Shown here: piece after piece, positions 1-29,446 of the stretch | How the letters are laid out: each line of letters begins with the position of its first letter | How positions within the stretch are numbered: the stretch's first letter is position 1 | From: Luzula sylvatica | Taxonomy: Eukaryota > Streptophyta > Magnoliopsida > Poales > Juncaceae | Direction of reading: 5' to 3' | Length of the DNA: 64,000 bases | Assembly (NCBI GenBank): GCA_946800325.1 | Contig: OX326960.1 | Location: forward strand, 50,959,355 to 51,023,354 | Made by a program: the position numbers and the translations under genes | The notes under the pieces: model-generated | What the model was told of the DNA's origin: nothing | The model's input: the letters and a program-made list of their open reading frames with translations, nothing else | The model's database searches: none

Positions 1-1413
1 ATGGGTTTTGCACCAATAAATCTCCCCAAATTGCACTCCACATTTTCGATTGTTTGTTAATTCAAATTTCAATTAACAGTTAATTCAAAGTTAATTACCG
101 GTTAATACAATTGTATCAAAATTACTAATTTTAATTACCGGTTAATACAATTCATTTTTTTTTGAAGTTTGTTATATAACTCCAAAACTAATTATATACT
201 TATTTAACACACTCATATGTATTAAATCAAATTTATTTATTTATATTTATATAATTAACATTAATATAATATTACATAACAAAATATCATCTCGTCATGA
301 TAATGCAACGAGAAGATTGCAAGGACTTTCTATCACCACTCATCAATGAATTGTTTATTTCTGATGCTACTTTCCAGAATTTTGATGGATTGATTAGGAC
401 ATTTTATTGACTATTAGTCTGTTATGACTTCTCTACTAATGTATTTGACCGATAACAATTAGTTTTGATGGTGCATCACCTAACATTTACACAAACTTTT
501 TTTTTTTTTTTGATTTTAACATTTACACAAACTTGCTACAAAGTCAGGCATTCCAAATGTAACTTTGCTTCCCCCTTGGTAAATGCTAAATTTACTATTA
601 TAGCCTTTAAAAAAATTTCACTTCTCATGCACATGAAAATAAATCACCAATTTACCCAAATTTCTTATTTTCATTCATTTATGGACGACCTCATAGTATT
701 ATATTATTGTAATTATTCAATCACTAAATTATGTATGACAAAATTTTAAGTATTTGATTAACCATTTTTTTTTTTATAATTATGAATTCTAAGTTCACCT
801 AACTTTGCAATTTTAAAGTATCATCATATCTTCCGTCAATAATCATCTTTCGATTAGGTTCAAATTAAACCGACTAATTGTTTATAATTTGACATGAATT
901 TATAAGATTAAAGGACAAATATACAGATGAAAAAGAAATTTTGCAAGACATATATGAAAGGATGTTCATATTTTTAAAACTATGATTTTGAAAACGATAC
1001 ATGATGTATGAAGTCATTTTTAGCTATATATATTTTTCAATACTAATAATAAAGAAAGAGAATAAATTATCTACTAAAACACAAATAATCATCGATTTTG
1101 TTGTTTGATAAAGGGATTATATATGGCGAGCCTCAAACAAAGAAAAGTTTTGACAATTCGTCAATCGAGAAGGGTAAATGAAGATTAATTAGATTAATTA
1201 ACACTCAAATCAATACTTAATTAGTTTGATTAAATTAAAAAATCTAATTAATCCAATTAAATTTGACGCAACATGATATTTTTCTGATTTACGGAGACAT
1301 AATATATTTATCTTTTGATAAATCATCTCTTCTTTTTACCTATTCATATTTTAATTTTAATGAAGTTATTATTTGACAATTCACCAAGTAGGAATATTAG
1401 TATCGTTCAATAC
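1..1413 (-). other. Intron 1 of the first CRK gene (partial)
   Basis: AT-rich non-coding DNA directly 3' (minus strand) of the splice donor at 1413/1412. Much of it aligns by eye with intron 1 of the second CRK gene: bases about 465-900 match about 51890-52290, and 985-1400 match about 53460-53725. It lacks the Helitron-like insertion and the long TA run found in the other copy, so it serves as the empty-site reference. No gene is seen in it. Confidence 0.75.
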
Positions 1414-2251
1414 CTGTGATTGGTGTATTTACCACCGGAGGCAGGGTGGAAGCCGGAGCCGGAGCAATCACCTCTGGAGCTTTAAGAGCCAAAATGGGCC
1501 TCCCTTGATAAAACGGATATATCTCATACCTAACGTTACACAACACCGCGAGAACTCTCCCTCCTCGTTTCCCACTGGCTGTGGTTGCGAGCTCGCCAAT
1601 CAACGAACTCAAGCAAGACGCGCAATCCGACCCAGACAAGTTAGGCGTGCACTGTACCAACCCATACAACACCGGTACGGGCGTACTCGTATTCATTTCG
1701 GCCGTACCGAACTTTTTTGAGTTATTGAAAGCAGCGTAGTTAGAAGTGGTGTTCATGAGATTGTGTACTTGATTACTGAACAACTCGATCGATCCAGCAA
1801 TGGTCTGGCTGTTTATCATCATGATTTGTTGTGAGTTATCCGTCGAGCCGAGAAACTGCTGATCGGAGTAGCGCAATAAACAAGAATCATACCAAATAAT
1901 TCCTTCTCTGTTGTACGAACATAGATTTTGCACATCTCGCGAGGCTTGAGAAACGCAAGAAGAGCAAGCAGATGAATTGACGTCTCCGCGGCAGAGAACT
2001 AAGCCTGAAATTTGATTTGGGACGGAGCCCACCATGCCAGAAGCGAACCCGAAGTTTTTCGAATTGGTTGTGTTTGTTGTGAGAGAACCCAAAAGAGTGT
2101 TGAGATTCGATTGGTATGTACTATTAGCAGCGAACTTCGTGGTGCCGCAAATTTGGTATAGGACAGCATCGGCGCTGGCTGTTGGTGGGCAGAAACAGAG
2201 GACGAGGAGAAGAGTGGAGAAGGAAACGAAGTGAAGATGAGGGAATTGCAT
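1414..2251 (-). CDS. Cysteine-rich receptor-like kinase, exon 1 (signal peptide plus two DUF26 domains), partial gene
   Basis: Extracellular part of a DUF26 receptor-like kinase, a plant family of plasma-membrane kinases linked to stress and immune signalling. From the ATG at 2251, residues 1-27 form a signal peptide (hydrophobic core LLLVLCF, small residues TASA before the likely cleavage site). Two DUF26 signatures C-X8-C-X2-C occur at residues 87-99 (CRGDVNSSACSSC) and 201-213 (CTPNLSGSDCASC). A proline-rich juxtamembrane linker follows. The exon ends in phase 1 at CAG|GTATTG (1414/1413), exactly where the second CRK gene splices into its transmembrane exon. The transmembrane and kinase exons would lie left of base 1, so the fate of the gene cannot be judged. 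A secreted DUF26-only protein is the alternative, but the matched donor site argues for a kinase. Confidence 0.88.
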
Positions 2252-3639: not shown

Positions 3640-4356
3640 CTTCCATCATGCTTTCACCGTTCTTCCACTCCATAAACACGTGTGTCCCATTCCCACACGA
3701 CTCGACACCGTCAAGAATACGTACTCCTCCTTTTGGATAAACCGGAATAATTTCGATAAAATCCTAGCCTTCTGTTGTGATCACAAACGAAAACCAAAAG
3801 TATGGTTCTTCTATCCGTATCCATCGTGAGTTATCGTCTATCGGTTACGCACTTCTATGCATAGAATATCCGTGTGTAAACTTGCTTAATCTCGATTGGA
3901 GAATCTCTAATGTAGAAAAATAATTTTTCTCCTATTCTCTCTTTCTCTCTTTCATGTTTAATTCACACCTATGAGGGTGATATCCAACTATTGGATGTGA
4001 TGTATTGACTGGTTCAATTGAATTAGATTACATAGAAGAGAGAGAGAAAATATATATATAAGACAACCAAGTGGTGCAAACTAATGACATGAATCTGAAC
4101 AGCTTCCGTTCGAACGGATGATCAGTCCGTTCGAACTAAAGAAGTTTTGTCACTTGAGTATATAATCTAATTAACACTCGACTCCTTCCGTTCCAACGGA
4201 TTAATCATTTCGTTCGAACGAAAGAGTTAATGTCAGAAATACTTGTATAATCTTATTATACATTCAGATTATATTTCGTTCGAAGGGAACATCTTATGTT
4301 TGTTACTTGTGTACAATCTCATTGTACACTCCCATGAACACATACGTTCATTTTGT
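3640..4356 (-). mobile_element. Decayed LTR fragment of a Copia-type element (LTR-a)
   Basis: Bases 3640-3960 are the inverted counterpart of 48204-48460 plus 47215-47260 in the Copia-3 LTR: the same CGACACCGT, TAACTCACGG and TAAGCAAGTTTA blocks occur in reverse. A TATATATATA stretch near 4050-4065 read on the minus strand could be its TATA box. Two pairs of CCGT-N4-ACGG-type palindromes (4106-4240) lie upstream of it, as in the other LTRs of the window. The outer ends are not resolved. Confidence 0.5.
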
Positions 4357-9309: not shown

Positions 9310-9605
9310 ATGGTTTTTGGTTCAAATTTCCTGATAGTTTGATTATTTCAAAACACTGTCATTACTAACGTATACATCCAGAAAAGTGCAGGATAACATA
9401 GGTACGATACGAAGATGAAGGAGGGCTTGTGAAGTCTCAAGATGAACAAGACAAGAAGAACACAAGGAAGGCCATTGGAATACATCAAGAATCAAGATGT
9501 TGAAGCCTTCCGTGAGTGGGATGCGCCACAAATAAACCATAGGTAGAAACCTAGTAGATCTCAAGTAAAATCATGTTCAAAATAACAAAGAGTTCAATCA
9601 AGCAT

Positions 9606-9945
9606 GAAGTGCGTTCTGAACGAACTCAAAGTCCGTTCAGAACGGACTTGCCACATATCAAAATATTATCTCTTGATAAGAACCAAAACTGTCACAGGAT
9701 TGTGTGCGTTCGAACGAACAAACATGTTCGTTCGAACGAACATTTATAATCCGTTCACCTACCATTTAAGTGCGTTGAACGGACAATCCTTTCTGTGAAC
9801 ACAAAATTCAATGTATAATTGAGTCCGTTATGAACGGACTTTGTCCGTTCAAACGGACTCACAAATGTACTTGCACGTTATTTCGAAACGGCTAGTACAA
9901 ACTGCAAGTGCGTTCGGAACGAACATTGTGCGTTCGAACGCACTG
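9606..9945. repeat. Palindrome array in U3 of B1 (CGT-N4-ACG, centres mostly TCGA)
   Basis: About eleven short dyads such as GTCCGTTCAGAACGGAC, TGCGTTCGAACGAAC and ATGTTCGTTCGAACGAACAT, mostly arranged in close pairs. The inner CGT...ACG is kept while the flanking base and the four central bases vary. It lies 30-370 bp upstream of the TATA box. Confidence 0.85.
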
Positions 9946-9974
9946 GCAGTTTTCTGAAGGATTTCTATAGAGAG

Positions 9975-9983
9975 TATAAATAG
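9975..9983 (+). promoter_or_regulatory. TATA box of B1 5' LTR
   Basis: TATAAATAG after the palindrome array and before a CT-rich segment. The equivalents are 30986-30994 in the 3' LTR, 22287-22295 in B2 and 45739-45747 in B3. Confidence 0.7.
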
Positions 9984-10568
9984 AATCCTTCTAGGGCTTC
10001 TCTCTCCCACTTCTTCACTTTTCAAACTTTGAAAACCAAAAGAGAGAAAACCTAAGCTTTGATTATCCATATCCATTTATAGCTTGAGAAATCCTCTTTA
10101 GATCGTTGATCTACTTTCCAAATCCTCCACTAATCGTATCCCACTCACGTGACCGATCACGTTGTAGCTCGATTAGTGAAAAATTGTAATAGGCTAGTGC
10201 AACAAATTGTAAAGAGCCTAAGCTATAGATCGATAGAAAGCGTGTAAATCGATCTAGGCGACACCTTGTAATCGAGTGAGCTGGAATTCAATCGAAAGCC
10301 AAAAAGAGGCACAAGGCATTCCCGGAGACGTAGGTACTCGCAAATAATTGAGTCGGTCAATTAAGCGAGTAAAGGGTGAGTTAAAGCTACATAGCAACCA
10401 CCTACCGAACATCGTAGACAAACATCTTGTGTTCAAGTGTTAGTACGGTATCATCTTTATCATCTAAATTATTATTAATTCCGCACCGTAAATTAGGGTA
10501 TCATCTAAAGTAAGTGTACGTTAGATTACCACATTTACCCCCCCTCTAGGTTAGAATTAACCAACAAT

Positions 10569-10653: not shown

Positions 10654-12924
10654 TTGTACAACATTCATCATCTAATCAATAAATCAAACATCTCAAACTC
10701 ACGTGAGTTAGATGGAACCAATTGGAGTTCTTGGAAGAAATGCATGTTGAATGCATTCGCTCTCCAAGGGCTTGACAAGGTAGTGTTACGAGGCTTTGTC
10801 TCAGTCCAAGATGTCGACAATGCCGGTAACATAACCTATCCTGCTCAAACTAGAGAAGATAGAACTAATGATATATACGCTCAAAACTTGATACTTAATA
10901 ATGTGATTAGTTCTATCGGATCTCTAGTTGATCATTGTGAAACCTCATATGAAATGTGGCGTATGCTCAATGAGAGATACGAGGGAACATCTCAAATGAG
11001 GAGAACAAATATCATCGGACTTGAACAAGAATTTAACAATCTCCGGATGATTGAAGGCGAGTCAGTTGGCATAATTTGGGCGAAAATAAATGTACTTAAA
11101 ACCCGATACGCCACCCAACATGCACCTCTCACTGATGATCGAATTATTGCACGATTACTTCAAGCTATGCCCCGTAGTTGGGAATCTTTACGTGTAGCGT
11201 TAGGTACGGCGATCGCCTCACAAGATCTCACGCCCGAAGAATTGGTAAGTCAATTCCGAAATTTCGAGATTCGACTCAAGCAACTAGATGAGGAGTATGG
11301 AATCGCCACACCTACCTCTCAATCCAAAGCCGTAGCTTTGCCCGCCGTAAACACGAGCAATGAGGACAATGAGATAGACGATCTAACCCTACGACTACTA
11401 GAGTGGCAAAGAGATGAAAAACGATTCAACGAGAATCGGAAACAAAAGGGGTTAAAGCTCCATTGCTTTTGGTGCAAGAAAGGTGGACACATGATGGAGT
11501 CATGTTGGACACTTCACCCCGAAAATTCCCGTTGGTCCAAAAAGGATGATGACCGAAAAGATCGGGAAAGGCGAGAACCTCGACACGAAAGGAGATACGA
11601 GGACAAGGGCCGAGAAGATCACCAAAAATATAAAGGTAAGGAATATAAAAAGAAAAAGGCTTATAAAGCAAATGTTGATTGTAGGTGGGGCGAAACGGAT
11701 GGATCAAGTTCGTCATCCGAATCTGATGGTCCATCAAACCGACACACCGCAAATCTAGCACTTATGGTAAGGATCGACCCTCCATCGATGAGCGCGGTGG
11801 AAGCATCAATTCAAAGTCTCCGAATTGAGCGAGGTCCAATTCCAACGCCTCGCACTCCCGTGGTCATAAGCGTCGAAACGTCTACGCCTACTCCAAAACT
11901 GACACGTGATCAAAATCATGAGGTACGTATCCACTCTATACCTAACGTAGAACTATCACCTCAACTTCAATACTCACCCTCGTTAAAATTAGAACTTGAG
12001 TCATGTGACAAATTCTTGAGGGATGACGGGGACTCTCAACAATATGAGGGAAAAATTGAGAGCTCGACACAAGCTCTCAAGGATAAGGTAGCTTCTCTTG
12101 AACTATCTATTTTGGCATTTAAATCTCAATTAAAAGAATTTAAAGGATTTTCAAAATGTGAGTGTCAAGCTCTAAAAGGCGAGATTTCACATCTAAAAGT
12201 CGAACTTCTAAATTCTAAAGTTGAAAATGATTCCTTGAAGAAGGCTTGTGCATCTATTGCATCAAGTCCTCCATCATTGGATGAAATTTTGAAATCGTCA
12301 TTCATGGGACAAAAGCCCAATGACAAATCCGGTTTAGGATATAAGAAGAATAACGGTAATAAACCCGATTCTTCCAACTCCAAAGATCAAAAATCAAAAT
12401 GGGAGAACAATCGAGTTAGTAGTCATGGAAATGCTTTTATGTACCATGATTACAACAAGGGTAAAAATGTGAAAAAGGAACAACCTAAACGTGCTAGCCA
12501 TAATTATAGGAATAATCATTTCACACAAAATTCACAACCTAGACATGACAATTTGGGAAGAACCGATTGCTTGTTCAAACGGGGACCAAATGGTTACTTC
12601 TATGAAGTGACAAACTACACCGAGGCTTCGCATAAAAAAGGGGCTCCCAAACACTACACCAACACACAAAAACATTTTCAACCAAAACAAGTTAAATCAA
12701 ACCGATTTCAATCAAATGAATTTCCATCAAATCAATTTCATCAAATGCCAAAATCGATAATTTCTCGGAGAAGTGACTCAAATCAACTCTCGAACTATTT
12801 TGTGAAGAGTTCCACAACCACAGATAAGCCAACCTTAGCCTTTTGTAATTATTGTTGCAAAAGTGATCATATCTCAACAAATTGTGATCTTCGCAATCCA
12901 AAATTGACATCGAATGTCGTTTGA
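10654..12924 (+). CDS. B1 ORF1: Copia-type Gag with two CCHC zinc knuckles
   Basis: A 756-residue capsid/nucleocapsid-like protein. Residues about 15-210 fit the UBN2/DUF4219 gag domain of plant Copia elements (DGTNWSSWKKCM near the start, W in MWRMLNERYEG, IEGESV, MPRSWESLR). CCHC knuckles are at residues 271-284 (CFWCKKGGHMMESC) and 731-744 (CNYCCKSDHISTNC). A basic, charged tract follows the first. A heptad-rich helix (about 465-530, KDKVASLELSILAFKSQLKE) suggests a coiled coil. Compared with the B2 homologue the 3' end is cut by TGG to TGA at 12922-12924; about 21 further codons stay open to 12989. ATGGCC at 10634 lies in another frame that soon stops, so the N-terminus may carry a small frameshift. 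No enzyme domain is present. Confidence 0.85.
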   Translation: MYNIHHLINKSNISNSRELDGTNWSSWKKCMLNAFALQGLDKVVLRGFVSVQDVDNAGNITYPAQTREDRTNDIYAQNLILNNVISSIGSLVDHCETSYEMWRMLNERYEGTSQMRRTNIIGLEQEFNNLRMIEGESVGIIWAKINVLKTRYATQHAPLTDDRIIARLLQAMPRSWESLRVALGTAIASQDLTPEELVSQFRNFEIRLKQLDEEYGIATPTSQSKAVALPAVNTSNEDNEIDDLTLRLLEWQRDEKRFNENRKQKGLKLHCFWCKKGGHMMESCWTLHPENSRWSKKDDDRKDRERREPRHERRYEDKGREDHQKYKGKEYKKKKAYKANVDCRWGETDGSSSSSESDGPSNRHTANLALMVRIDPPSMSAVEASIQSLRIERGPIPTPRTPVVISVETSTPTPKLTRDQNHEVRIHSIPNVELSPQLQYSPSLKLELESCDKFLRDDGDSQQYEGKIESSTQALKDKVASLELSILAFKSQLKEFKGFSKCECQALKGEISHLKVELLNSKVENDSLKKACASIASSPPSLDEILKSSFMGQKPNDKSGLGYKKNNGNKPDSSNSKDQKSKWENNRVSSHGNAFMYHDYNKGKNVKKEQPKRASHNYRNNHFTQNSQPRHDNLGRTDCLFKRGPNGYFYEVTNYTEASHKKGAPKHYTNTQKHFQPKQVKSNRFQSNEFPSNQFHQMPKSIISRRSDSNQLSNYFVKSSTTTDKPTLAFCNYCCKSDHISTNCDLRNPKLTSNVV

Positions 12925-13890
12925 ATGCGCAAAGATCGTCACACGATGGGTCCTTCTACATCATACGGGGTTGGACCCCCTAGGGCTTAAACCCGAATGT
13001 GACAATATACTCCTTCATTTACCATACCATAAGCCAAATATTGAGGGGGAGTATAGTAAATAAATCTTAATATACTATCTTAATCCAGTATAGAGTCCAT
13101 TTAGTGATCACATCACAGTATATAGTCCGTTCGAACGAACATAGTGTTCGTTCAGAACGAACATTTGAAATATAAGTATTCTCATCAACCTCAAATTAGT
13201 GGCCACATCACAGAGCCAAATGCGTTCGAACGAACAATATGTTCGTTCAGAACGAACAAATGGAATTAAGGATCCTTGGTAGCAAGCGTATCAATATCCC
13301 AACGAACAAAATGTTCGTTCTAACGAACTTAAAGGATGAGAACCTTTGTTGGGTTATTCAAAATTTCAAAGACCAAACGTACGCGCCAAGGACTTAAATT
13401 TTGATGTAGGACATACAGTGAGTTCCAACGCACTTAAAGTACGTTCGAACGGACTCACATCATTCAGTGAACCTCTTTCATGGCGTCCTTTGTTTTTTTG
13501 TTCATCCAAACAGTTTCAAGTGCGTTACAACGAACAAAGTGACCGTTCGAACGCACATGCCTCATTCATTAAACCGACCTAGTCATGAGGCTTAAACCCT
13601 TCCACTCGCGCCTTTTCCCCTTCTCGCAGTGCCATGTGCGTTCGAACGCACAAATATGTACGTTCGAACGGACTCACTGTAATTACTCTCCATCAGCATG
13701 CAACCAACCCATTCAATACATGCAATTCTTCCTCTTCTTCTTCCAACTCAAAGAATTGAAGAGACACTTCTTGATTCACATAAGTTGATCTTTCTCTCTC
13801 TCTCTCTCTCTATCCAGATCTCCAAATACCTTTCTTTCCCAAATCTTTCTTCTCTCCAAGACCCATCTTTCCCAAATCTCACGATTGTCA
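12925..13890 (+). promoter_or_regulatory. B1 inter-ORF spacer: palindrome array and CT-rich leader
   Basis: After a GAGGGGGAGT block near 13042 the spacer carries paired CGT-N4-ACG palindromes from about 13125 to 13675 (for example GTGCGTTCGAACGCAC). A pyrimidine-rich stretch with (CT)n at 13790-13812 then leads to the ORF2 ATG. The layout resembles a plant core promoter and 5' leader, so ORF2 may have its own transcript. The B2 spacer (24655-25797) has the same order. This is inference; no clear TATA box is seen here. Confidence 0.5.
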
Positions 13891-14927
13891 ATGGCATCCT
13901 CATCAAGAGTGAAAGGCAAGAAGAAAGTGGCAGCCACAAGAGTTGGTCGTAGCGAGCGTCTTCAAGAGACCTACAATTTCAACAACCCTCAAAATGACCA
14001 CCTCTTCCGTAATCCAGAGGCAGCAATCCGGTTTAAGGAAATCGTCTCCAAGAAAGCCATCGCCAAGTGCTTCTACTACGAGTTTCCTCCCAACATTCCT
14101 CATCTTTACGACATAGTGGAGGGAATCGAGCGAAGATGGGGATTTGCAAACCTCGCGTGTCTCAACTGCCAATCCTATGACGTCATCACGCGGCTCTTCT
14201 ACGCCAACGCCATATTCGACCATGACGAAGAGAAGGTAACCTCATATATTCTTGGTGAGGACGTTGAGATTTCGGTTCGCAACATGTGCGACCTTCTAGG
14301 ACTCAAGGACGACGGAGAAAAGGTCTACAATGCCCGCAAGGGGAGACTCGAACCAGAGGTCATCGAACCCATGAAGAAAGTTGTAACTAACAATTACGAA
14401 TCACCCAACTCGGCCACTCACCTTGCCGCACCCGAGAAATTCGTTTGGGAAATCGGTAACAATATTCTCACTCCTGTTGCTAAATTAAAGGCAAATCTTG
14501 AAAATAGGAATGTGATGCTTTTATATCGCATGTGGTACCCGGATCAACTACCCATTCATGTCCCACATCTGATTCTGAGTCACATGGAAAGCATCATGAG
14601 TCAGAAAATCGCCTCGCTTCCATATGGCACGTTGATTGCCCACATGTTGGAAATTCAAGGATTCACAATCCCGGTGCAAGAGTGGGATTTTCGACCCGAG
14701 TCACCGATCAATCTTGCATCGAAAGAAAATCTCATACGGCTTGGATACCGATACTCGAACAACATCCAATGATGGATAATTGACTCGAAGAAGGATGAAA
14801 AGTCTTTCCATCTTCCTCGTAATCCAACCCGTTGGGCAGAGGGTGATACCCACTCCGAGGAGGAGGACAACGCCGATCCCACCTATACCGAGCAAGGTGG
14901 TGGACAAGACACTGAACAGCCGAGGCG
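13891..14927 (+). pseudogene. B1 ORF2, N-terminal part (plant-transposon-type protein), broken
   Basis: From ATG 13891 the frame is open to a TGA at 14770-14772 and continues in the same frame to 14927, where element C interrupts it; it resumes at 29447. It aligns along its length with the intact B2 ORF2 (25798-27102): shared segments include LFYANA/LFYAHA, the WEIGNNILTPV/WQIGNNVLTPV block, NIPHL/HVPHL and SLPYG. The family looks like the 'putative plant transposon protein' domain found in plant retroelement-associated ORFs; the function is unknown. The nonsense codon and the C insertion make this copy inactive. Confidence 0.75.
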
Positions 14928-16510
14928 TGATGAGAGGGTTTTTGGCGTGTAAAATTATCATTGTATTCGAAAATCCGATTCAATCAACAAGTTGGAAAAT
15001 ATAGTTGTATAGTGGAAAATATGAAAGTTCGTTCCACGAGGAGTATATGCGTCAATTAAATCAAAACTAGACAAGAAATAGCAAAGAAAATTCACAGAAT
15101 ATAGTCCGTTATACCGGAATATGAGTCCGTTACAACGGACTTGAGTGAATTTTCTGGCGCTAAGTGTGAGATGAACGTCCGTTACAACGGATGAAACTCC
15201 GTTATAACGCACTAAACTGGTCCGTTATAACGAACAGTGGTTGCGTTGCAACGGATTGGTTAATCCGTTACAACGGACCGAGATGTCCGTTACAACGCAC
15301 TTGTATTGATTCCCTTGAATAAACATTCTGACTAGTCCGTTACAACGGAACTCTAGTTGCGTTACAACGGAAGTATAACCAACTGAATATTAAAGGACCA
15401 ACCGTCTAGTCCGTTGTAACGCAATGTGAGTCCGTTATAACGGAAGTAGTTCTGGATTTCTGATTTGAGATTTGATTTGGGAGCAATTTGATGGTTTGTT
15501 TTGGATTCAAATTTAGAAGTAATTAAACTAAGTAACAAGCACTAATATCACACAAACAAACAAAGAAGATTTAGAGCAAAGAAAAAGAACTAAAGATGCG
15601 TTAAACCGAGAATTCTTTACACAACAAAATCCAATCAAACAACAATTAATCAAGTAATTGAAAAGGAGTACACCTAGTTGAGAAAGCCTCGAAGTGAAGC
15701 TCCTTGTCTCCTTGCCTCGCACCGAAAGATCCTTGCTCCTTGTCTCGAGAGTGATGGATTGTACCGAAAGGATGAAGCTCCGAGTCACGGATCGCAATCA
15801 CTTCGAAGAAACGCGGATCGAGTCACGGCACTTCTTCTCAAATCCACCGTAGGGAATAGCTCCTTGTCACGGCCCGATCTTCGAAGGATGAGAAGGATTC
15901 GTCGAAGGGATGAGCTCCCTTGTCTCGACTTGTCCTTGAGAGATTTTTCTTGATTGATCTTGAAGTATCTTGAAGGTTCTTGATGTTCTTGACGGTTCTT
16001 GGAAGTTCTTGAGAGGGAGAGAGAAGAGAGAGAGAGAAAGTGCTCCGAAGAGCGGGAAGAAAGGCCCCTCAACTCGTGGCCCTTTTGGTCTTATTTATAG
16101 CACTCACGGAGTCTTCTTATTGGTCACGAGTTGGTGGAGAGGATTGGGGGTAATGAAGTAATTTCCACCAAAGGTAGGTGGGAAGGATAAGGGCTAAGGA
16201 TTGAGTGGTTTTCGTGTGGAGTTTTGTGTAAGTTTCTATCATGATGATTGCTTGCCTCCCGTCTCATTCATGTACCGAATATATCGGTACAATATATCGT
16301 TTTCATTCCTCTTGACGTGTTGGAGACAACTACACTTTCCAAATTCCCAGAATTTCCTTCTAAAACCTGTAATTAAGCAATAAAACACACTTAGTGAAGA
16401 AATATTCTTGTTATCTCAAATATGAACAATTGTATATATAAAGTTGTGATTCAAAAGGGCTAAAATCCCCAAATTAGATATCAAAAAGGTGCTTTATTTT
16501 CCTCTTATCA
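14928..16510 (-). repeat. C 3' LTR
   Basis: 1583 bp, about 99 % identical by eye to the 5' LTR (20100-21361 plus 29117-29441). On the minus strand a TATAAATAAG box lies at about 16093-16103. The CGT-N4-ACG array at 15103-15440 (centres TACA, TATA, TGTA, TGCA) lies downstream of it, in R/U5, unlike the other families. Reading frames inside the LTR are shadows made of short repeats such as CTTGTCTCGA. Confidence 0.88.
15103..15440. repeat. Palindrome array in C 3' LTR
   Basis: About a dozen TCCGTT-N2-AACGGA dyads (ACAACGG, ATAACGG, GTAACGC and so on) in pairs 8-20 bp apart. The same array is at 20278-20622 in the other LTR. Confidence 0.85.
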
Positions 16511-18059
16511 AATACCCCCATACTTAAACCCCTGATCGTCCTCGATCATGATGAGCGTAAAAATCAAGCACAAAGAAAAATGCATGTATAGGTTTTATTG
16601 AAATTATATTCATCGATCTCAAAACTCAATTCTCACGAGATAATTGTTTACTCTTATCATAATCACTAATATTGAAAGAGATAAGTTTGAGTTATATTAG
16701 AATCTATTTTCAATGAATTGCACAAATTCGAAGAGTTTATTTGAGCAAATGATCTCAACCGAAAAAGATGATTAAACACCATCATTCAATTCTTTTCACT
16801 CCACAATTCACAAGGATTATCATAAAAAAGCATTAATGAAAACCAATTTTTCCGTTTTGTAAAAAAAATCATTTCTTAAATGTAATTTGTCACTTTTAAA
16901 CCGTTCGGTACGTTAGTACTTGGTTCATCTTCGATTTCTACTAAATTTTCCCAATTTGCGCTCGATTTTTGAACTCCTTTTCTTTCCTTTTTATTCTTTT
17001 TATTTTTCTTCTTTTCTTTTATTCTTTTTATTTCTTTTCTTTTGTTCGTTATTGCTTTCGATGGTCCCCATGTGTGTCCTTTGGGATAACAAGTGGTCAT
17101 GACTCACACCACTCATTACTTAGTAAACCCCATGGATCCGCGCAATCTTTAGCCAACAAGTGGTCATGACTCACACCACTCATTACTTAATCAATCGCAC
17201 GGACTCGACAATCGAAAGCGCTTTAATCCGTGATTGTAGAAAACTTTTTCGCATCGACTCTTGATCATGACTCACACCAAGAACCGGCTACTTTGGTTTA
17301 CTACGACTCATGCACCCCTTTAGCCAACAAGTGGTCATGACTCACACCACTCATTACTTAATCAAGGTGCATGAGCTCATCGAATCAAGCTTTGAGCGCA
17401 AATTGGTTCCCGTTAGTGTAATTTCGAATCCCCATGAACGGTCGAGCTCTTTAAGTGCAATTGGTCAAATTTTAGATTCAAACAAAACTTACTACATTGG
17501 TTCAAACAAAGCTTTTTAGAATTTCCAAGTTCAAAATGGGTTTATTTATTGAAAATGGTGTGTCATGTAAATCGAGGATTGATCAATTTGTCAAAAAATT
17601 ATGAATTTAGTGAATTCATTGATTAGGGTTTGAATCCCCAAAAGAATCTCTCCAAGATCTCAATCAACTCCTTCAAATATTTGTGAAAATTTCAAATTTG
17701 AGAGTAAAATTATGCTAGTTTGGTGAAAATTTGTTTAAAAATCGATGATTTATTCAATGAGGTGGAGAAAAACCTTTAACTTGCATAAAATCATTTGCTT
17801 GTATAACCTTGATGCTCAAAAAACAAAAATAAGGTCGAAAAATTCAATTAAAAGCTCGTTTTTTTTTCATTTTTTTAGGCAAAAAACAAATTTTGCCAGA
17901 AACAGTTCCGTTGTAACTGACCTTAGGTCCGTTACAACCGAGTTGCAAAATTTTTTTTTTTTAAAAAAAAAAAAAAATATCAAAGACTGTGTGTATATCC
18001 CCCCATACTTATTCCTTCGCTTATCCTCAAGCGATAATAAAGAGAAAAAATAAAAGAAG
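16511..18059 (-). other. C internal non-coding region
   Basis: Contains the polypurine tract, a long T/C-rich run at about 16977-17045, a three-fold repeated segment (17087-17363), two imperfect CCGTT-type dyads (17906-17945) and an oligo-T/oligo-A dyad at 17949-17976. No coding frame is recognised. Such regions are typical of non-autonomous LTR elements. Confidence 0.55.
17087..17363. repeat. Three copies of a roughly 38-bp direct repeat
   Basis: The block ACAAGTGGTCATGACTCACA followed by CCACTCATTACTTA occurs at about 17089, 17155 and 17325, the last two also sharing the leading TTTAGCCA. GTCATGAC at its core is itself a palindrome; a fourth, partial ATCATGACTCACACCA occurs near 17263. Confidence 0.8.
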
Positions 18060-18755: not shown

Positions 18756-19745
18756 TTATCCTCCTTCAAAATTAAACGAAGCACTAACATGGATCGCTAC
18801 TTTTCGACCGCCTCGAAATACTCCCTTTGAGATGTTGGAGATGAGAGAAATCGGCGCTTGTATCACTCGTTTTGCATATGTCGAAAGTGGCGTCAATATT
18901 TCCTCAATCTTGCTTCGAATTTTTCGAATTGCTTCATCGCTTGGAGTTTGATGAAGAGGAGTTGGGAGAGGCGTGAGTGTTTCGAATGTATTTGACTTCC
19001 TTGATAAATCTACACAAGGTGAATTTCTATCATGAGAAGCATCATAGTTCTTAAATGAATTAAAATTGATGATATATGGAAAAAATTCACCTTGGAGAAT
19101 TGTAGATTTCTCTTCTTGCTCGTTTGATAATTGCGCGTTTTCATCGATTGGAGTGAGTTGAACCGTCTTTTGGAGAGTCGAACCCAATGACACCTTTTCT
19201 TCTTCAATCCTCGTTCCAATGCTTTCATCGAATTCCCCCATACTTGAACTCTTGTCGTTTTCAATCTCCACGATCTCCTCGTTTAAATATTCTAACTCGA
19301 GACAAGTCACTCTTTGATCTAGATCATTGAGCGTGGATTGAATATTTTCGAGTCGTCGAGAGGTGGTTTTAATCTCTTGTTTGATTTCATGTTTGATTTC
19401 GTTTATTTCTTGTTTGATTTCATGTTTGATTTCTTCAAGATCTTGATTCAATTGTCCAAAATTTTGTTTTATCATTGCCGTCATTACCTCCATTATTCGT
19501 TTAAATTCTTGGTTTGGATTTTCGTTTTGGGCTTGAAATGGGTGATCTTGGTATTCAAACTTGTGTTGAAATTCGAGTTCATTTTGAGAAGGTTCGTATA
19601 TGGGGTTTGAGTACATGGGGGTTTGAGTAGTTGTTAGCGGTTTCGGCATAGGATTGTGTCTCATAACCCCATGGAGATTCGTTTTCGTATTGGCGAGCTT
19701 CGTAGATGGGATTTTGATAAAGGGTCTCGGTGTGTGATTCATCAT
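18756..19745 (-). CDS. C: gag-region ORF with long coiled coil
   Basis: A 329-residue minus-strand frame. Residues about 85-165 are strongly heptad-like (repeats of EIKHEIKQEI), predicting a coiled coil, followed by an acidic region. I recognise no zinc knuckle or protease. It sits between the primer site and the integrase relic, where gag belongs. The frame is open upstream of the first ATG, and a second frame (19944-19756) holds what looks like the true N-terminus, so one frameshift near 19770-19800 is likely. The function is inferred only from position. Confidence 0.5.
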   Translation of the reverse strand: MMNHTPRPFIKIPSTKLANTKTNLHGVMRHNPMPKPLTTTQTPMYSNPIYEPSQNELEFQHKFEYQDHPFQAQNENPNQEFKRIMEVMTAMIKQNFGQLNQDLEEIKHEIKQEINEIKHEIKQEIKTTSRRLENIQSTLNDLDQRVTCLELEYLNEEIVEIENDKSSSMGEFDESIGTRIEEEKVSLGSTLQKTVQLTPIDENAQLSNEQEEKSTILQGEFFPYIINFNSFKNYDASHDRNSPCVDLSRKSNTFETLTPLPTPLHQTPSDEAIRKIRSKIEEILTPLSTYAKRVIQAPISLISNISKGVFRGGRKVAIHVSASFNFEGG

Positions 19746-20099: not shown

Positions 20100-21361
20100 T
20101 GATGAGAGGGTTTTTGGCGTGTAAAATTATCATTGTATTCGAAAACCCGATTCAATCAACAAGTTGGAAAATATAGTTGTATAGTGGAAAATATGAAAGT
20201 TCGTTCCACGAGAAGTATATGCGTCAATTAATGAATCAAAACTAGACAAGAAATAACAAAGAAAATTCACAGAATATAGTCCGTTATACCGGAATATGAG
20301 TCCGTTACAACGGACTTGAGTGAATTTTCTGGCGCTAAGTGTGAGATGAACGTCCCGTTACAACGGATGAAACTCCGTTATAACGCACTAAACTGGTCCG
20401 TTATAACGAACAGTGGTTGCGTTGCAACGGATTGGTTAATCCGTTACAACGGACCGAGATGTCCGTTACAACGCACTTGTATTGATTCCCTTGAATAAAC
20501 ATTCTGACTAGTCCGTTACAACGGAACTCTAGTTGCGTTACAACGGAAGTATAACCAACTGAATATTAAAGGACCAACCGTCTAGTCCGTTGTAACGCAA
20601 TGTGAGTCCGTTATAACGGAAGTAGTTCTGGATTTCTGATTTGAGATTTGATTTGGGAGCAATTTGATGGTTTGTTTTGGATTCAAATTTAGAAGTAATT
20701 AAACTAAGTAACAAGCACTAAGATCACACAAACAAACAAAGAAGATTTAGAGCAAAGAAAAAGAACTAAAGATTCGTTAAACCGAGAATTCTTTACACAA
20801 CAAAATCCAATCAAACAACAATTAATCAAGTAATTGAAAAGGAGTACACCTAGTTGAGAAAGCCTCGAAGTGAAGCTTCTTGTCTCCTTGCCTCGCACCG
20901 AAAGATCCTTGCTCCTTGTCTCGAGAGTGATGGATTGTACCGAAAGGATGAAGCTCCGAGTCACGGATCGCAATCACTTCGAAGAAACGCGGATCGAGTC
21001 ACGGCACTTCTTCTCAAATCCACCATAGGGAATAGCTCCTTGTCACGGCCCGATCTTCGAAGGATGAGAAGGATTCGTCGAAGGGATGAGCTCCCTTGTC
21101 TCGACTTGTCCTTGAGAGATTTTTCTTGATTGATCTTGAAGTATCTTGAAGGTTCTTGATGTTCTTGACGGTTCTTGGAAGTTCTTGAGAGGGAGAGAGA
21201 AGAGAGAGAGAGAAAGTGCTCCGAAGAGCGGGAAGAAGGGCCCCTCAACTCGTGGCCCTTTTGGTCTTATTTATAGCACTCACGGAGTCTTCTTATTGGT
21301 CACGAGTTGGTGGAGAGGATTGGGGGTAATGAAGTAATTTCCACCAAAGGTAGGTGGGAAG
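20100..21361 (-). repeat. C 5' LTR, part 1 (interrupted by B2)
   Basis: Same sequence as 14928-16175. B2 inserted at GGAAG (21357-21361), and the remaining 325 bp of the LTR follow at 29117-29441. It carries its own palindrome array at 20278-20622. Confidence 0.88.
20278..20622. repeat. Palindrome array in C 5' LTR
   Basis: Copy of the array at 15103-15440. It differs by one extra C in GTCCCGTTACAACGG (near 20352). Confidence 0.85.
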
Positions 21362-22865
21362 TGTTGGTTCAAATTTCCTATTGTTTGATTATCTCAAATA
21401 CAATGTCGATACTACTAACGAAATCTAGCAAGATAAATGTGTAGGAGATAGGTACAAAATGAAAGGATCAATCAAGAATAACAACAATCAAAGACGTCAA
21501 AGAATCACGGATAAAATCAAGACGCACATGAATCAAGACATTGAAGAATTGCGAAGAAGATCAAGACATAGAAGATTCCGCAAGTTGGGATATCTACCTA
21601 ATCATCAATACAATATATAGGTATCTCTAAACTTGTTTAAAAGATTAAACTCAATGAAAAAGTACTTGAATTCAATTAAAAAGGCTGAAATCAGTATGTC
21701 CGTTGCAACGGAATTCCAGTCCGTTGTAACGGAACTACTCGAGTTATTCAACATGGGAAAAACCAGTATAGTCCGTTGCAACGTAATCACCAATACGTTG
21801 TAACGGAAATGTACGTTGTAACGGAACTCTATCTCCGTTGCAACGTTATTTTATTTCCAATGAGGAAGCCTGTCACAGAAGAATGTCCGTTGTAACGGAC
21901 ATTAATGTCCGTTGTAACGGACATCAAGGCTTCACTTCAGTATAAACTTCCACATAGGTCCGTTGTAACGGATTAACCAGTCCGTTGTAACGGAAACCCT
22001 CACCACGTTGTAACGGAAAACTCTCCGTTGCAACGGGAATTAAAACCAAAGCTGAAGTGTTGTCTCAGTAGCATGTCCGTTGGAACGGACTCAAGTCCGT
22101 TGGAACGGACTAGCTAACACAGACGTCCGTTGTAACGGACTACGTTCCGTTACAACGGACTGTGTAATAAATTCAAGTACGGCAGCCTCCAACGGCTAGT
22201 TTTTGAATCACTCCGTTGCAACGGACCATATGTCCGTTGCAACGGACTATTCAGAATAAGCAATTCAGGGAAGGGACTATGTGTTCTATAAATAGAACCC
22301 TTCCCTCATTCTCTCACCTGACTTGAGCTATCAAAATTATACATTAAAAAGAGAGAATCCTTGCTATACCATTGAGTTAGATAATCTTCTAAAACATTCT
22401 TAGAGATTAGATTTCCCTCTTCTCCCTTCAAATAATATTCCCAACTTGCGTGACCGATCACGTTCTAAGTTAGTATTTAAAAAGTGTAATAGGCTAGTGC
22501 AACAAATTGTAAAGAGCCTAAGCTATAGATCGATAGAAGCGTGTAAATCGATCTAGGCAAATCCTTGTAATCGAGTTGAGTTGGAATTCAATCGAAAGCC
22601 AAAAAGAGGCACAAGGCATTCCCGGAGACGTAGGTACTCGCAAATAATTGAGTCGGTCAATTAAGCGAGTAAAGGGTGAGTTAAAGCTACAAAGCAACCA
22701 CCTACCGAACTTCGTAAACAAACATCTTGTGTCAAAGTGTTTGTACGGTATCATCTTCATCATCTAAATTATTATTTATTCCGCATCGTAAATTAGGTTT
22801 AAATCTAAACTAAGTGTAAGTTAGATTGCCAAATTTACCCCCCTCTAGGTTAGAATTAACCAACA
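21362..22865 (+). repeat. B2 5' LTR
   Basis: 1504 bp. Palindrome array at 21699-22260, TATA box TATAAATAG at 22287-22295, then a CT-rich leader. The last 420 bp (from about 22440) closely match B1's R/U5, showing common ancestry, while U3 has diverged. Confidence 0.92.
21699..22260. repeat. Palindrome array in U3 of B2 (centres TGCA, TGTA, TGGA)
   Basis: About twenty CCGT-N4-ACGG dyads such as GTCCGTTGTAACGGAC and TCCGTTGCAACGGA, mostly in pairs 8-15 bp apart. It occupies the U3 stretch before the TATA box. Confidence 0.9.
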
Positions 22866-22867
22866 AT

Positions 22868-22879
22868 TGGTATCAGAGC
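22868..22879 (+). other. Primer-binding site of B2
   Basis: TGGTATCAGAGC, the initiator-Met tRNA type, two bases after the 5' LTR. Confidence 0.9.
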
Positions 22880-22926
22880 AGGAATACAGACTGTCTCTTT
22901 GTGTAATTGACTACTTGTATTCGTTT

Positions 22927-24654
22927 ATGGCCTCACACGATTTTAGGAGGGAAATTACATACCCGAAAAAATTAGATGATAAAAATTGGAACCTTTGGAA
23001 GAAATGCATGACAAATGTATTTATTCTCCAAGATTTAAAATCGGTGGTGGAACGCGGGTACGAGGTCAAAATGGTAAAGACCTCCGAAACTAATGATACA
23101 CTAAAAATGTGTCCCACCACCGAGGCAAATGTGATGCTAGACATGTGTGCCCAAAAGTTAATTCTAAATCATATGGATGGGTCAATATCCGTACTAGTGG
23201 ACGGAAGTACCACATCTAATCAAATGTGGCGTGCTCTCCTTGATAGATTTGAAGGAAACGATCAAATGAAGAGAACCAAATTAATGGGACTCAATCAACA
23301 ACTTGAAAGTTTCCGAATGATCGAAGGTGAATCCGTAGATGATATGCATACACGCATGAATCATATCAAAAACGGATTCACCGCTTGGGGAGAGTCCCTA
23401 ACAAACTCTCGAGTTGTAGGTAAAATGATTCTAGCAATGCCATCGAGTTGGGAAACTCATCGAATCACGTTGGAGGCTATGATGGCTAAGCAAGACCTCA
23501 CGCCGGACGTTTTGTTGAGTCACTTACGAAATGTCGAGGCGCGCCTAAATCAACGAAGTGACAACACGGCAACAACCTCACACTCTTCACCGACTCCCAA
23601 AAGTGATGCTTCGCATGACTCAAGTCATGAGGTAAATCTAAATCTTGAATTTCAATCAATTACATCGAATCGAGATTCAAGCTCAACAAATGAATCGGAA
23701 TATACGTTAGAGCTTGAATTACACGATGATCTAGTTCGGGAAGTGACCCGGCTCAGAAAAATTGAGAAGGAAAATGAGAGCATGATACTCGCTCTCAAGG
23801 ATAAGGTATCCTCACTCGAATTATCGGTAACTTCGCACAAAGCCCAATTAACCGAATTAAACGGATTTTCAAAATGCGAGTGTCAAGCCCTAAAAGTAGA
23901 GACCTCATCTCTAAAAGTCGAAGTTCAAAATTTAAAATTTATGAACGAGTCTTTGAAGAGTACATGTGTATCTCTTACACGTAGCACTCCTTCATTGGAC
24001 AAAGTCTTGGAGGGACAAAAACCCGATGATAAGACGGGTCTAGGATTTAAGAAGACTACCCGTCATAAACCCCGTCCTACAAAATCCAATGATCAAAAAG
24101 GTAAACGGGAGAACAACCAACAAAACAATCGGGGAAATGCATTCATATACCGTGACCAAAACTACGGTAAGAATGTAAAAAGAGAACACCCTAAAAATAA
24201 TCGGTTCTATCCTAGGGATAACCACGTTACCCAACCATTATCCCATAAACGCATCGATTTGGGACAACCCGAGCGTCTATGTCAACGGGGATCAAATGGG
24301 TATTTCTATGAGGTAAATCACCCCGCAAACCGTTCATATCTACAAAGGGCTCTTAAACCTCGCAACCATACGCGCAAACCTTTTCAACCGAAAAACAATT
24401 TTGTCAACTCAACCAAATCGATACCTCAAAAGAAACCCCTAACAAACCAACTTTCAAATTACTTTGTCAAGAGTTCCGAAACCATCAACAAACCAACAAT
24501 TGCTTTTTGCAATTATTGTTGTAAGTTAGGACACATATCCACGAGTTGTGATCTTCGCTATCCAAAATCCACTCCAAAATTTGTATGGATGCGTAAAGAT
24601 AGACACACCATGGGCCCCTCCACCTCAAAGGGTGTTGGACCACCAAGGACCTAA
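22927..24654 (+). CDS. B2 ORF1: Copia-type Gag
   Basis: 575 residues from ATG 22927 (ATGGCC context); the open frame extends further up but only into the primer site. It is homologous to B1 ORF1: gag/UBN2 region residues about 10-190 (LDDKNWNLWKKCM, MWRALLDRFEGN, RMIEGESV, MPSSWETHR), a coiled-coil stretch about 250-330 (LKDKVSSLELSVTSHKAQL), a basic Asn-rich region, and a C-terminal CCHC knuckle at about 528-541 (CNYCCKLGHISTSC). The first knuckle of B1 is missing. Ends PPRT-stop. It should form virus-like particles that package the element's RNA; the enzymes must come in trans. Intact. Confidence 0.85.
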   Translation: MASHDFRREITYPKKLDDKNWNLWKKCMTNVFILQDLKSVVERGYEVKMVKTSETNDTLKMCPTTEANVMLDMCAQKLILNHMDGSISVLVDGSTTSNQMWRALLDRFEGNDQMKRTKLMGLNQQLESFRMIEGESVDDMHTRMNHIKNGFTAWGESLTNSRVVGKMILAMPSSWETHRITLEAMMAKQDLTPDVLLSHLRNVEARLNQRSDNTATTSHSSPTPKSDASHDSSHEVNLNLEFQSITSNRDSSSTNESEYTLELELHDDLVREVTRLRKIEKENESMILALKDKVSSLELSVTSHKAQLTELNGFSKCECQALKVETSSLKVEVQNLKFMNESLKSTCVSLTRSTPSLDKVLEGQKPDDKTGLGFKKTTRHKPRPTKSNDQKGKRENNQQNNRGNAFIYRDQNYGKNVKREHPKNNRFYPRDNHVTQPLSHKRIDLGQPERLCQRGSNGYFYEVNHPANRSYLQRALKPRNHTRKPFQPKNNFVNSTKSIPQKKPLTNQLSNYFVKSSETINKPTIAFCNYCCKLGHISTSCDLRYPKSTPKFVWMRKDRHTMGPSTSKGVGPPRT

Positions 24655-25797
24655 ATCACGTGTGAAAGACTCACTCCCTCACCACACTACCATAAGCCAA
24701 ACATTAAGGGGGAGTATGAGTACAAGAATTCATATTAGATTAACCTTCAATATGAATTCCCTATTTTTATAATTATCTACACACTTACGAAAAGGGCGAG
24801 AAAGGTACTCTTGTTTCCATGTAGGCACACAAGACCGAAGAGAGAAGTCGAAAAGCTCATCGTACACAAAACTTCACGATCTATCGTAGAAGAAAAATAA
24901 GCTCTAGAAATCGATCAAGAGTTCTCCTTCGTAAGCTTGGTTCTCGGGTCCATGACCGGAGCAAAGGTATAATCGCTTTAATAAATGACTTAAAGCATTA
25001 GAGGTATTTGTATTTCTACAAATATCATTGATTATCATGAATACTCGCATGCACATTTTTATAAATTTTTCATACGAAATTTTGTCACGAAACGCATATT
25101 TCCATATCCATAAAACCTATTTTAGATAAAGTATATATTTTTGAAATTTATGACACACAAAAACTTTTCAAAAGCCAAATTTTAACTCCTCATCCCAGTA
25201 AAGAGTCCGTTATAATGCACCAATGTGCGTTACAACGGACATAAGAGGGCAAGCCAAAACCTGCGAAATCAAAAAGTCCGTTACAACGGATAAACCAATC
25301 CGTTGCAACGGAAAGACTCTTCCGTTACAACGTAAGTATCTACGTTCCAACGGACAAACTGAGGTCTGAAAACCTCTCCAAACACAGAAGTCCGTTATAA
25401 CGGATTATCCAATCCGTTACAACGGATATGTGCGTTACCACGAACATAGTTCGTTATAACGGAAGTCTGAAATACCAGTTGAAATACCCCCAAATCGACA
25501 GTTGCGTTACAACGGAACTACACTTCCGTTGCAACGGACTTCACGATAACTGCATAAAAAAACTGTTCGACTGGTTTTTCTCTCCATTCTCTTCACTTCT
25601 ATCCACTTCGAAAAACTGCTTCACCTTCTCAAAACCTCCGAGATTCCTCTCCAAAACCGAAAATCTCTCCCTTTCCTCTTCCTATTTAACATCCATACTT
25701 CACTCTATTGAGATCCAAAAACCCTAATTCTCTCGAAAACCATTATTTCTCTCAAAAACCCTAGTTCTCTCCGAAATCTCTCTATCTCTCTCGAAAA
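24655..25797 (+). promoter_or_regulatory. B2 inter-ORF spacer with palindrome array and leader-like DNA
   Basis: TAAGGGGGAGT follows ORF1 near 24705. At 25204-25545 there are about eight pairs of CCGTT-type dyads. CATAAAAAAACTG (about 25552-25564) could be a weak TATA box. The following 230 bp are rich in CTCTC and AAAACCCTA, like a plant 5' leader, and end at the ORF2 ATG. This supports separate transcription of ORF2 but does not prove it. Confidence 0.5.
25204..25545. repeat. Palindrome array upstream of B2 ORF2
   Basis: Dyads such as GTCCGTTACAACGGAT and TCCGTTGCAACGGAC, the same centre types as the B2 LTRs, paired at 8-15 bp spacing. Confidence 0.85.
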
Positions 25798-27102: not shown

Positions 27103-27607
27103 AGTTATGTGTGTCTACCTAGCTCATTAGAGCATAAAAACATTTTCTAAAATTAGTACCCATTTGCATATGTCTTGTCATGTTTGTTTTCGAAAAACTT
27201 GTTTTAATTACGCTATTTCGTATGTGTATCCATGCATGTTTGCTTGTATGAACTTGAATTTATGATTAAGAGTTGATTTCGTTAAAATATTTGTGCAAAT
27301 GAGTATTATATTACTTTGGTAACTTTCTCATTACTAAAACTCGAAAATTATATCACATATTAATCTCAAAAATCATTCATAATTTAAAAGAGTATTCAAC
27401 TACATCAAAGCTTATACACGCGCGATATGCACGTGTTTAGGGGGAGCTTGTATGTAGGGGGAGCTTTCCTTCATGATTTTTCCAATTCAATCCCTTTTAA
27501 TCCACTTTCAAAAAGGGGGAGAAAGGATAATCATATTGGAAAGATACCGATAATCGATGTATCTCTCCAAATCGACATTGTTTTGAAATGAATCAAAAGG
27601 GGGAGTT
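27103..27607 (+). other. B2 3' non-coding region
   Basis: Contains TTTAGGGGGAGC and a second GTAGGGGGAGC near 27440-27464, a GGGGGAGAAAGG block near 27513, and the terminal AAAGGGGGAGTTTG before the LTR. These repeated purine tracts are shared with B1 (30168-30325) and B3 (44660-44808). Confidence 0.65.
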
Positions 27608-29111: not shown

Positions 29112-29116
29112 GGAAG

Positions 29117-29441: not shown

Positions 29442-29446
29442 AGGCG

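Follow-up and report, generated by a model that had tools for sequence, protein, structure and literature searches.

Several families of LTR retroelements in Luzula sylvatica carry dense arrays of short palindromes of the form CGT-N4-ACG. The question raised by this locus is what these arrays are and what reads them. The original prediction described a recognition unit with fixed half-sites and a fast-evolving core, shared or convergent between families and belonging to no named element type. We examined the arrays in a stretch of 64,000 nt (C5:50959355-51023354, hereafter the window) and in further pieces and loci of the genome (numbered L). Judged from sequence, they are of a kind that already bears a name, the repeated-motif (RM) boxes of Sireviruses (PMC2829016), with another core, written in dialects and extending beyond the Sireviruses.

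Dyad enrichment and carrier elements

CGTN4ACG occurs at 121 sites in the window, compared with 7.8 ± 2.7 (maximum 15) in 100 dinucleotide shuffles, an excess in line with the original prediction. When all 64 inverted 3-mer pairs are compared at spacings of 0-24, CGT-N4-ACG reaches the top z-score (121 sites, 8.9 expected from 3-mer counts). Its observed-to-expected ratio of 13.6 is second to the 14.2 of CCG-N6-CGG, a pair contained in these dyads. The form with a five-base centre, CGTN5ACG, is raised too (25 against about 9), and all 16 intervals predicted to hold arrays contain sites of one or the other form. Chance as the origin of the dyads is ruled out by the shuffle and 3-mer-pair counts. 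Across the genome (445 Mb in 37 contigs), the pattern CCGTTGCAACGG was found at 3038 places and a reversed-pattern control at 7; the degenerate form of the dyad pattern is CCGTNNNNACGG. Eighteen grid-placed 10-kb genome pieces held 42 sites against 18.0 expected, and six of them contained dyads 18-24 bp apart. Three of the six (L016, L023, L024) match the E1-, E2- and E3-type LTRs described below, respectively. Matches for two more (L011, L013) fall in the Copia LTR or leader of L026/L028, and that for L012 falls in region G of the window, which may or may not be an LTR.

Non-duplicate array sites (n = 79) extend the predicted unit CGT...ACG to a longer conserved one, T-N-CGT-T-NN-A-ACG-N-A. 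The T at -2 and the A at +11 are each present in 76 of the 79, and the fuller consensus reads [G/T]-T-N-CGT-T-NN-A-ACG-N-A-[C/A]. The N beside the core is biased without being fixed (left-side C in 47/79), and the base after CGT is T in 68 sites and C in 8. Close pairing of the dyads had been noted earlier and is borne out: 76 of 143 neighbour gaps measure 18-24 bp, 21 measure 49-54 bp and all are at least 18 bp long, with the reservation that related arrays share spacings and the gaps are not independent observations. Taken together, gaps below 100 bp phase best at 10.4 bp, whereas the optimum for those above 24 bp alone (n = 63) is nearer 11 bp.

The carriers are nested LTR retroelements (Table 1). 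E1, a Sirevirus-like element with a gag-type ORF, holds the minus-strand element E2, and one LTR of E2 holds E3. E2 is Gypsy-type by homology to L027, a Gypsy element with a 1400-aa polyprotein (RVT_1, RNase H, rve) that carries two arrays, one 240 bp after the polyprotein ORF and one within a stretch matching the E2 LTR at 86%. E3 is flanked by the target-site duplication GGAAG (by eye). No pol was found in E1 or E3; E4 is of Copia type and contains fragmented gag and pol. The two E1 LTRs differ at one dyad (9729 versus 30740) in a symmetrical manner, TCGT..ACGA against CCGT..ACGG, so that the palindrome is kept.

Table 1. Positions of LTRs, dyad arrays and open reading frames in the window
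Feature	Positions	Strand	Details
Short C-dialect array	4106-4240		3 sites
E1 5' LTR	9314-10568	+	self-blastn, LTR ends, PBS TATCAGAGC; 3' copy 30325-31579, 98.96% identical
E1 LTR array	9606-9945	+	C dialect (TCGA and TCnGA), 4 N4 + 4 N5 sites
E1 LTR TATAAATA box	9975-9982	+	about 35 bp after last dyad
E1 gag-type ORF1	10654-12924	+	PF14223 Retrotran_gag_2
E1 internal array	13125-13675	+	C dialect, 8 N4 + 2 N5; nearest dyad 230 bp before accessory ORF
E1 accessory ORF	13891-14772	+	PF20167 Transposase_32-like, 2.1e-11, 44.5 bits vs cut-off 45
E2 LTR	14928-16511	-	other copy split, 20100-21361 + 29112-29442
E2 LTR array	15103-15440	-	R dialect, 11 sites; copy at 20278-20622
E2 gag-like ORF	18756-19745	-	29% identical over 69-92 aa to L027 Gypsy polyprotein
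E3 5' LTR	21362-22865	+	3' copy 27608-29111, 99.7%; TG...CA ends
E3 LTR array	21699-22260	+	R dialect, 18 sites; copy at 27945-28500
E3 LTR TATAAATA box	22287-22294	+	about 43 bp after last dyad
E3 gag-type ORF1	22867-24654	+	PF14223
E3 internal array	25204-25545	+	R dialect, 11 sites
E3 accessory ORF, 434 aa	25798-27102	+	PF20167, 2.7e-11, 44.1 bits vs cut-off 45
E3 polypurine tract AGGGGGAG	27598-27605	+	10 bp before 3' LTR; 5 linker copies
Two more C-dialect dyads	30058-30097	+	before E1 3' LTR
E1 3' LTR array	30616-30957	+	
D array	44176-44370		CATG centres, half-site CGTCA, 4 sites
F array	45247-45700	+	TCAG/CTGA centres; about 44 bp upstream of TATA-R-U5 homologous to E1, E3
G array	47339-47640		mixed TCAG-type; kin of L012
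E4 5' LTR	56510-57103	+	3' copy from 63773 (99.2%), running past window
E4 LTR array	56580-56690	+	C dialect; adjoins TATATATA (by eye)
E4 leader array	57340-57520	+	C dialect; between LTR and gag
E4 gag + pol	58527-62474		Copia, in pieces
E4 3' LTR array	63843-63953	+	

Copia elements with pol, gag-only elements and Gypsy elements all share the motif, as had been proposed. The arrays had also been listed as separate occurrences, which fails for those beginning at 20278, 27945, 30616 and 63843; these are second LTR copies and not independent. One shared insertion is rejected as the source, with arrays in Copia, Gypsy and gag-only elements and spacers that are largely non-homologous. In the Copia pieces L026/L028, the array lies upstream of gag. 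Arrays also grow and shrink, as members of one Copia family hold 0, 2, 15 or 16 sites at the same place. The member with none is the Copia relative at 35408-37456, in agreement with the earlier statement that a "Copia-1" LTR lacks the motif provided that this is the element meant.

Two other features of the window were observed. At 52444-53418, a tandem pair of about 490 bp doubles as an inverted repeat of itself (88% over 964 bp), giving a large fold-back structure. Two copies of a Stress-antifung (PF01657) gene lie at 1397-2251 (-) and 53723-54637 (-), in duplicated, related blocks that are 83% alike over 1106 bp.

Half-site constraint and dialects

The arrays are written in distinct dialects. 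The half-site CGTTC (C dialect) is used by E1, L016, L024, E4 and the array at 4106, and CGTTR (R dialect) by E2, L023, L027, E3, L028 and L002. The D array uses CGTCA, and F and G combine CGTTC with CGTCT; L012, the kin of G, carries TGTA and CATG centres. The family-specific centres of the original prediction are thereby recovered, with TC in 84/92 half-sites of TCGA families, TG or TA in 186/192 of TRYA families, CA in 8/8 of D and a TC/CT mix in F and G. Five-base centres are found at 14 of 46 C sites and at none of 96 R sites.

Constraint was measured by alignment of homologous arrays, with sites defined on one copy so that the other copy was free to vary. Three independent pairs were pooled with the window copy as reference (E1/L016, E2/L027 and the internal arrays of E3/L025). 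The core CGT/ACG had changed at 2 of 180 positions and T-2/A+11 at 0 of 60, together 2/240, and the inner T..A at 2/60. In the same pairs, changes amounted to 83/485 (17%) in spacers, 10/64 (16%) in the centre, 12/60 (20%) at the free N (-1/+10), 14/60 at -3/+12 and 125/667 in the flank (core plus -2/+11 versus spacer, Fisher p = 1.8e-13). Further pairs agree: E2/L023 gave 0/66 for the core, 56/142 for spacers and 2/22 for -2/+11, and L027/L023 gave 0/72, 54/148 and 2/24, respectively. The constraint was weaker in L028/L002 (core 11/89, spacer 78/274), and the E3/L025 LTRs and L026/L028 are too alike to inform (spacers 4/261 and 9/275). Six further arrays before accessory ORFs, compared with the single E3 internal reference and so not independent of one another, had changed at 5/375 core, 4/125 -2/+11 and 235/783 spacer positions; 44 of 126 centre positions differed, 38 of the 44 by transitions. 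The core contains CpG, which makes its persistence notable.

These counts bear directly on neutral tandem duplication, under which the motif would merely have been copied and the sites would be alike through recency. Arrays do expand and contract, and tandem units within E3 are 72% alike (self-blastn). Against it, spacers diverge by 14-41% and cores by 0-4% in the informative pairs (7-12% for L028/L002 cores), the six further arrays repeat the contrast, and the same motif recurs in Copia and Gypsy elements whose spacers are for the most part not homologous. Neutral duplication is contradicted by the substitution test, and we consider it very improbable. The predicted recognition unit with fixed half-sites is strongly supported by the same test. 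A fast-evolving core was not uniformly recovered: within a dialect, the two middle bases drift at the spacer rate, mostly by transitions, and the flanking T..A is kept.

Palindromes could alternatively act as RNA hairpins or cruciforms, for instance as small-RNA hotspots in a silencing arms race. A hairpin or small-RNA role was proposed for the LTR palindromes of maize Sireviruses (Bousios 2016, as cited in PMC5311732), and the palindrome regions are described in that source as fast-evolving hotspots of small-RNA mapping. Among the 79 mixed-dialect sites, from which C arrays are not separated, complementarity lies above independence at -1/+10 (42 against 34.6), at -3/+12 (40 against 29.6) and in the centre (37 against 22.3 expected). 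Dialect mixing can cause this excess, since TCGA is self-complementary. For R arrays, the -1 and +10 bases pair in 88 of 186 cases (94.5 expected), and complementary centres are depleted (61/170 against 85.0 expected, p = 2e-4). Selection for hairpins or cruciforms is rejected in R arrays, the set that this test covered. A freely changing -1/+10 beside a near-fixed -2/+11, together with the complementarity not kept in R arrays, points to a predicted site for a dimeric protein; the hairpin explanation appears improbable.

Dialects are consistent within elements and shift between them. In all four elements with both kinds of array (E1, E3, L025, L024/L030), the LTR and the ORF array use the same dialect. 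Before accessory ORFs, half-sites of the E1- and L030-type clades (C) are TC in 87/98 cases, and those of the P0002 clade (R) are TA/TG in 165/178 and TC in 4/178. A tree of five ORF proteins resolves three clades, E1+L044 (C), L030 (C) and E3+L025 (R, on the longest stem). The agreement between dialect and ORF clade is suggestive and comes close to a single event, one switch being visible on the ORF tree. In a tree of LTR TATA-R-U5 sequences, E3 pairs with L025 (both R) and E1 with L016 (both C), and F (TCAG) is grouped with L024 (C) with a support of 0.997. Three dialects occupy the same U3 position among LTRs sharing TATA-R-U5, with at least two switches. The proposal that the code is shared or convergent is left with both routes, as dialects that switch between relatives are compatible with convergence and with exchange.

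Asymmetric centres dominate R arrays (15103-15440, 21699-22260 and 25204-25545 in the window; L023, L025, L027, L028 and L031-L036). In element sense, R arrays of LTRs contain 38 TGTA and 3 TACA (E2, L023, L027, E3, L028), and the polarity is flipped in R arrays before accessory ORFs, with 37 TACA and 11 TGTA (E3, L025, L031-L036). A heterodimer or promoter polarity could produce the flip. A further observation concerns the LTRs of E3 (21362-22865) and L025, where array spacers in U3 differ at 4-5 of 255-271 positions and the rest of the LTR at 75-77 of 945, which could reflect a recent exchange of U3 between the two.

Array placement and the accessory gene

The arrays are tied to promoters, among them the region preceding an accessory ORF, which is absent from the original prediction. 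In E1, E3 and F, the LTR array ends about 35-44 bp before TATAAATA; the E2 array is not upstream of the visible TATA box (by eye). A second array lies before an accessory ORF and was present upstream of all 17 such ORFs examined, with the nearest site 230-324 bp from the start of the ORF or match. These 17 are related and not independent. They comprise the two in the window, L025, L030, six loci from a search with P0002 (73-90% identity) and seven from a search with P0004, the accessory ORF of L030 at 279-1619 (-) (39-76%). The 13 searched loci were picked for identity spread, not at random, before their upstream sequence was viewed; two of the seven P0004 loci are E1-type, L039 (ORF by L044) and L038 (by eye). 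A loose TATA-like pattern, counted without a chance control, occurs 77-168 bp before 11 of the 17 ORFs.

This layout resembles that of Sirevirus RM boxes in several respects. As described in PMC2829016 (Bousios 2010), RM boxes are palindromic, share a CGG-CCG core in 12 of the 13 elements and follow one consensus per element; they lie in the LTR ahead of the TATA box and, for 77 of 79 linker copies, upstream of ENV. High-copy palindromes here likewise occupy the upper half of the LTR before the TATA box (E1, E3, F; E4 by eye; not E2), recur before an ENV-type gene and use one motif per element in both places. The PBS TATCAGAGC is present in E1, E3 and E4. Copies of AGGGGGAG lie in the linker, the last of them 9-10 bp before the 3' LTR, in E1 (4 copies; 9 bp by blast coordinates) and in E3 and L025 (5 copies; 10 bp). 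In L024/L030, whose LTR boundary is not pinned, 4 copies lie towards the 3' end of the linker, and E4 reads AGAGGGAG before its 3' LTR (by eye).

There are also differences. The attachment site is TT/TG and not AT/TG (E1, E3 and L025 read AGGGGGAG-TT-TG), and the core is CGT-ACG and not CGG-CCG. Substitution resolves a half-site T-N-CGT with a free N, and dialects agree with the ORF clade. RM boxes are called Sirevirus-specific and said to be absent from classic elements (PMC2829016), whereas the present arrays are also found in a Gypsy element (L027). A transmembrane segment, expected of an envelope-like protein such as the Sirevirus ENV, is absent from four accessory ORFs, one of them broken, as judged by hydropathy only (maximum over 19 residues 0.93-0.99). 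PMC2829016 left the role of the ENV-type gene open, and its account of RM boxes identifies no common factor.

Genome searches for the accessory ORF returned at least 105 matches for P0002 (97 of 1170 candidates scored) and at least 97 for P0004 (94 of 1134 scored), most of the matches listed being without stops. The C array in the L024 LTR led us to expect an adjoining accessory ORF with a C array, an expectation formed before that sequence was viewed, though unrecorded. Both were found in L030, the 4 kb next to that LTR. Besides a Copia reverse transcriptase (RVT_2, 8e-79), this piece has four dyads with TCGA centres and an accessory ORF open over 447 aa; over 281 shared columns, its identity is 46% to the E1 ORF and 41% to the E3 ORF. 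The layout of L030 indicates that a fuller form of the element is a Copia with pol and the accessory ORF after it. In E1, the ORF is broken, the frame ending at 14772 and homology continuing to about 14871, followed by the nested insertion. Between E3 and L025, the ORF has dS 0.137 and dN 0.026 (dN/dS 0.19, compared with 0.34 for the C-terminal part of gag), and purifying selection on the ORF is thus evident in the sequences of this one pair.

PF20167 is the best Pfam match, just under the cut-off, of three of the four ORFs scanned (E1, E3, L025); in P0004, the Pfam scan gave no PF20167 match at E <= 1. No recognised DNA-binding domain was found in the accessory ORF by Pfam, and a protein database search of 3341 candidates yielded no relative at E <= 0.001. 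Residues 311-415 of P0004 match Tau95 (TFIIIC HTH domain) weakly and below the cut-off (E 0.0076), possibly by chance. The E3 protein has a basic N-terminus and a long C-terminal helix, modelled at residues 343-423 with pLDDT 62-82; the main domain, at pLDDT 41, is not usable. The modelled C-terminal helix may form a coiled coil.

A AGGGGGAG tract was also observed directly after gag, ahead of the internal array, at 13044-13051 and 24707-24714 and in L025, about 2.8-2.9 kb before the 3' LTR in all three elements. One guess is that pol was lost at this tract.

Candidate readers of the arrays

We propose that a dimeric factor recognises the arrays as rows of sites on both promoters and that this reader is the element's own accessory protein, a reading to which we assign a probability of about 0.5. 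In the proposed mechanism, a dimer would bind two facing T-N-CGT half-sites across a four-base centre, or in one dialect also a five-base centre. Spacing between neighbouring dyads is mostly about 22 or 52 bp. Binding may be cooperative on one face of the DNA. The LTR array would work in the U3 promoter before the TATA box (E1, E3, F), and the second array, which ends 230-324 bp before the accessory ORF, would most likely belong to the promoter of that ORF. Binding would switch transcription on or protect from silencing. The accessory product, which has a long C-terminal helix and lacks hydrophobic segments, would act on both promoters, and elements without the ORF, including Gypsy, may use the same factor in trans.

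Several findings weigh against the accessory protein as reader. They include the lack of a recognised DNA-binding domain, with PF20167 under its cut-off and P0004 unmatched, and the single dialect switch on the ORF tree. Arrays also occur in E4, E2 and L027, where the region after pol was viewed and the ORF not found. A three-protein profile search detected no trace of it in L027, E2, E4 or L016, nor did Pfam in two short frames of L027; in L026/L028, the region after pol lies mostly outside the pieces examined. Published Sireviruses without ENV likewise have LTR boxes, according to Table 3 of PMC2829016.

Host transcription factors are nearly as likely to be the reader, at rather below even odds. 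Paralogues differing in flank preference, such as NAC-like proteins reading T-N-CGT, would bind the arrays, each dialect would recruit a different factor with its tissue or stress programme, and the accessory gene would merely share the enhancer. Binding of host factors to LTR enhancers is well documented. Arrays in unrelated superfamilies, and in E4, E2 and L027, fit this explanation. So do the look-alikes of stress-factor sites reported in RM boxes (Bousios 2010, PMC2829016) and the resemblance of the half-site to the NAC core TTNCGT[G/A] given in PMC4081100. The details differ from those of NAC sites: the base after CGT (mostly T, as counted above) is not the G/A of the NAC core, and NAC palindromes use N7-8 in that source, compared with 7 N7, 17 N8 and 121 N4 sites here. 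NAC sites were rejected for this misfit of core and spacing. The MYB consensus is AACNG. MYB sites were rejected as well, as the base after AACG is not fixed in the 79 sites. Host factors also leave the agreement of dialect and ORF clade unexplained, though that agreement is possibly a single event.

Parallels to the accessory-protein reading exist in other systems. The anti-silencing VANC proteins of VANDAL elements have been shown to bind an arrayed motif (PMC5735166); for the present arrays, binding is proposed from sequence. Short motifs packed densely into noncoding DNA, dialects one or two bases apart, rapid turnover of arrays and an accessory gene are common to both systems. VANDALs are DNA transposons, a different element class to which no homology was shown, and the VANC21 motif is described as a directional nine-mer in one orientation. 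Foamy virus Tas resembles the proposed layout by its response elements in the LTR and an internal promoter (PMC7530389); transactivation has been shown for Tas only, and no test here relates it to the arrays. Among plant LTR elements, Retand carries TRP28 accessory ORFs antisense to the element, possibly encoding DNA-binding or nuclear proteins, along with family-specific tandem repeats (PMC11963269), and Athila has an accessory ORF with Transposase_32 similarity (PMC11728184), like the best Pfam match here. The portions of these two papers considered report no dyad code, and the ORFs described here lie in sense orientation. A 2026 paper raises as unresolved whether Tork and Athila elements encode proteins by which they influence the methylation of the elements themselves (PMC12844716). 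In a limited check of open-licence literature, we found no paper naming a reader protein of RM boxes.

A broader proposal follows from the accessory-protein reading, and we advance it tentatively, at somewhat less than even odds. The 'envelope-like' gene of Sireviruses would encode, in place of an envelope, a sequence-specific dimeric DNA-binding regulator that recognises RM dyads both in the LTR and in the gene's own promoter, acting as a feed-forward switch or anti-silencing factor in the manner of VANC and Tas. Its code would diverge with the protein, as in the C and R dialects, and evolution of this code in Gypsy and other Copia elements would let them borrow the factor. Sireviruses make up about 21% of the maize nuclear genome (PMC3599292). 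The substitution test turns RM boxes into a defined half-site. Dialects provide matched and mismatched probes and ORF clades the matched proteins, so that the open question of the reader becomes accessible to a simple binding test. If the accessory protein does bind, plant retrotransposons would own a factor that promotes transcription or counters silencing, and unrelated elements would be pirating its evolving code.
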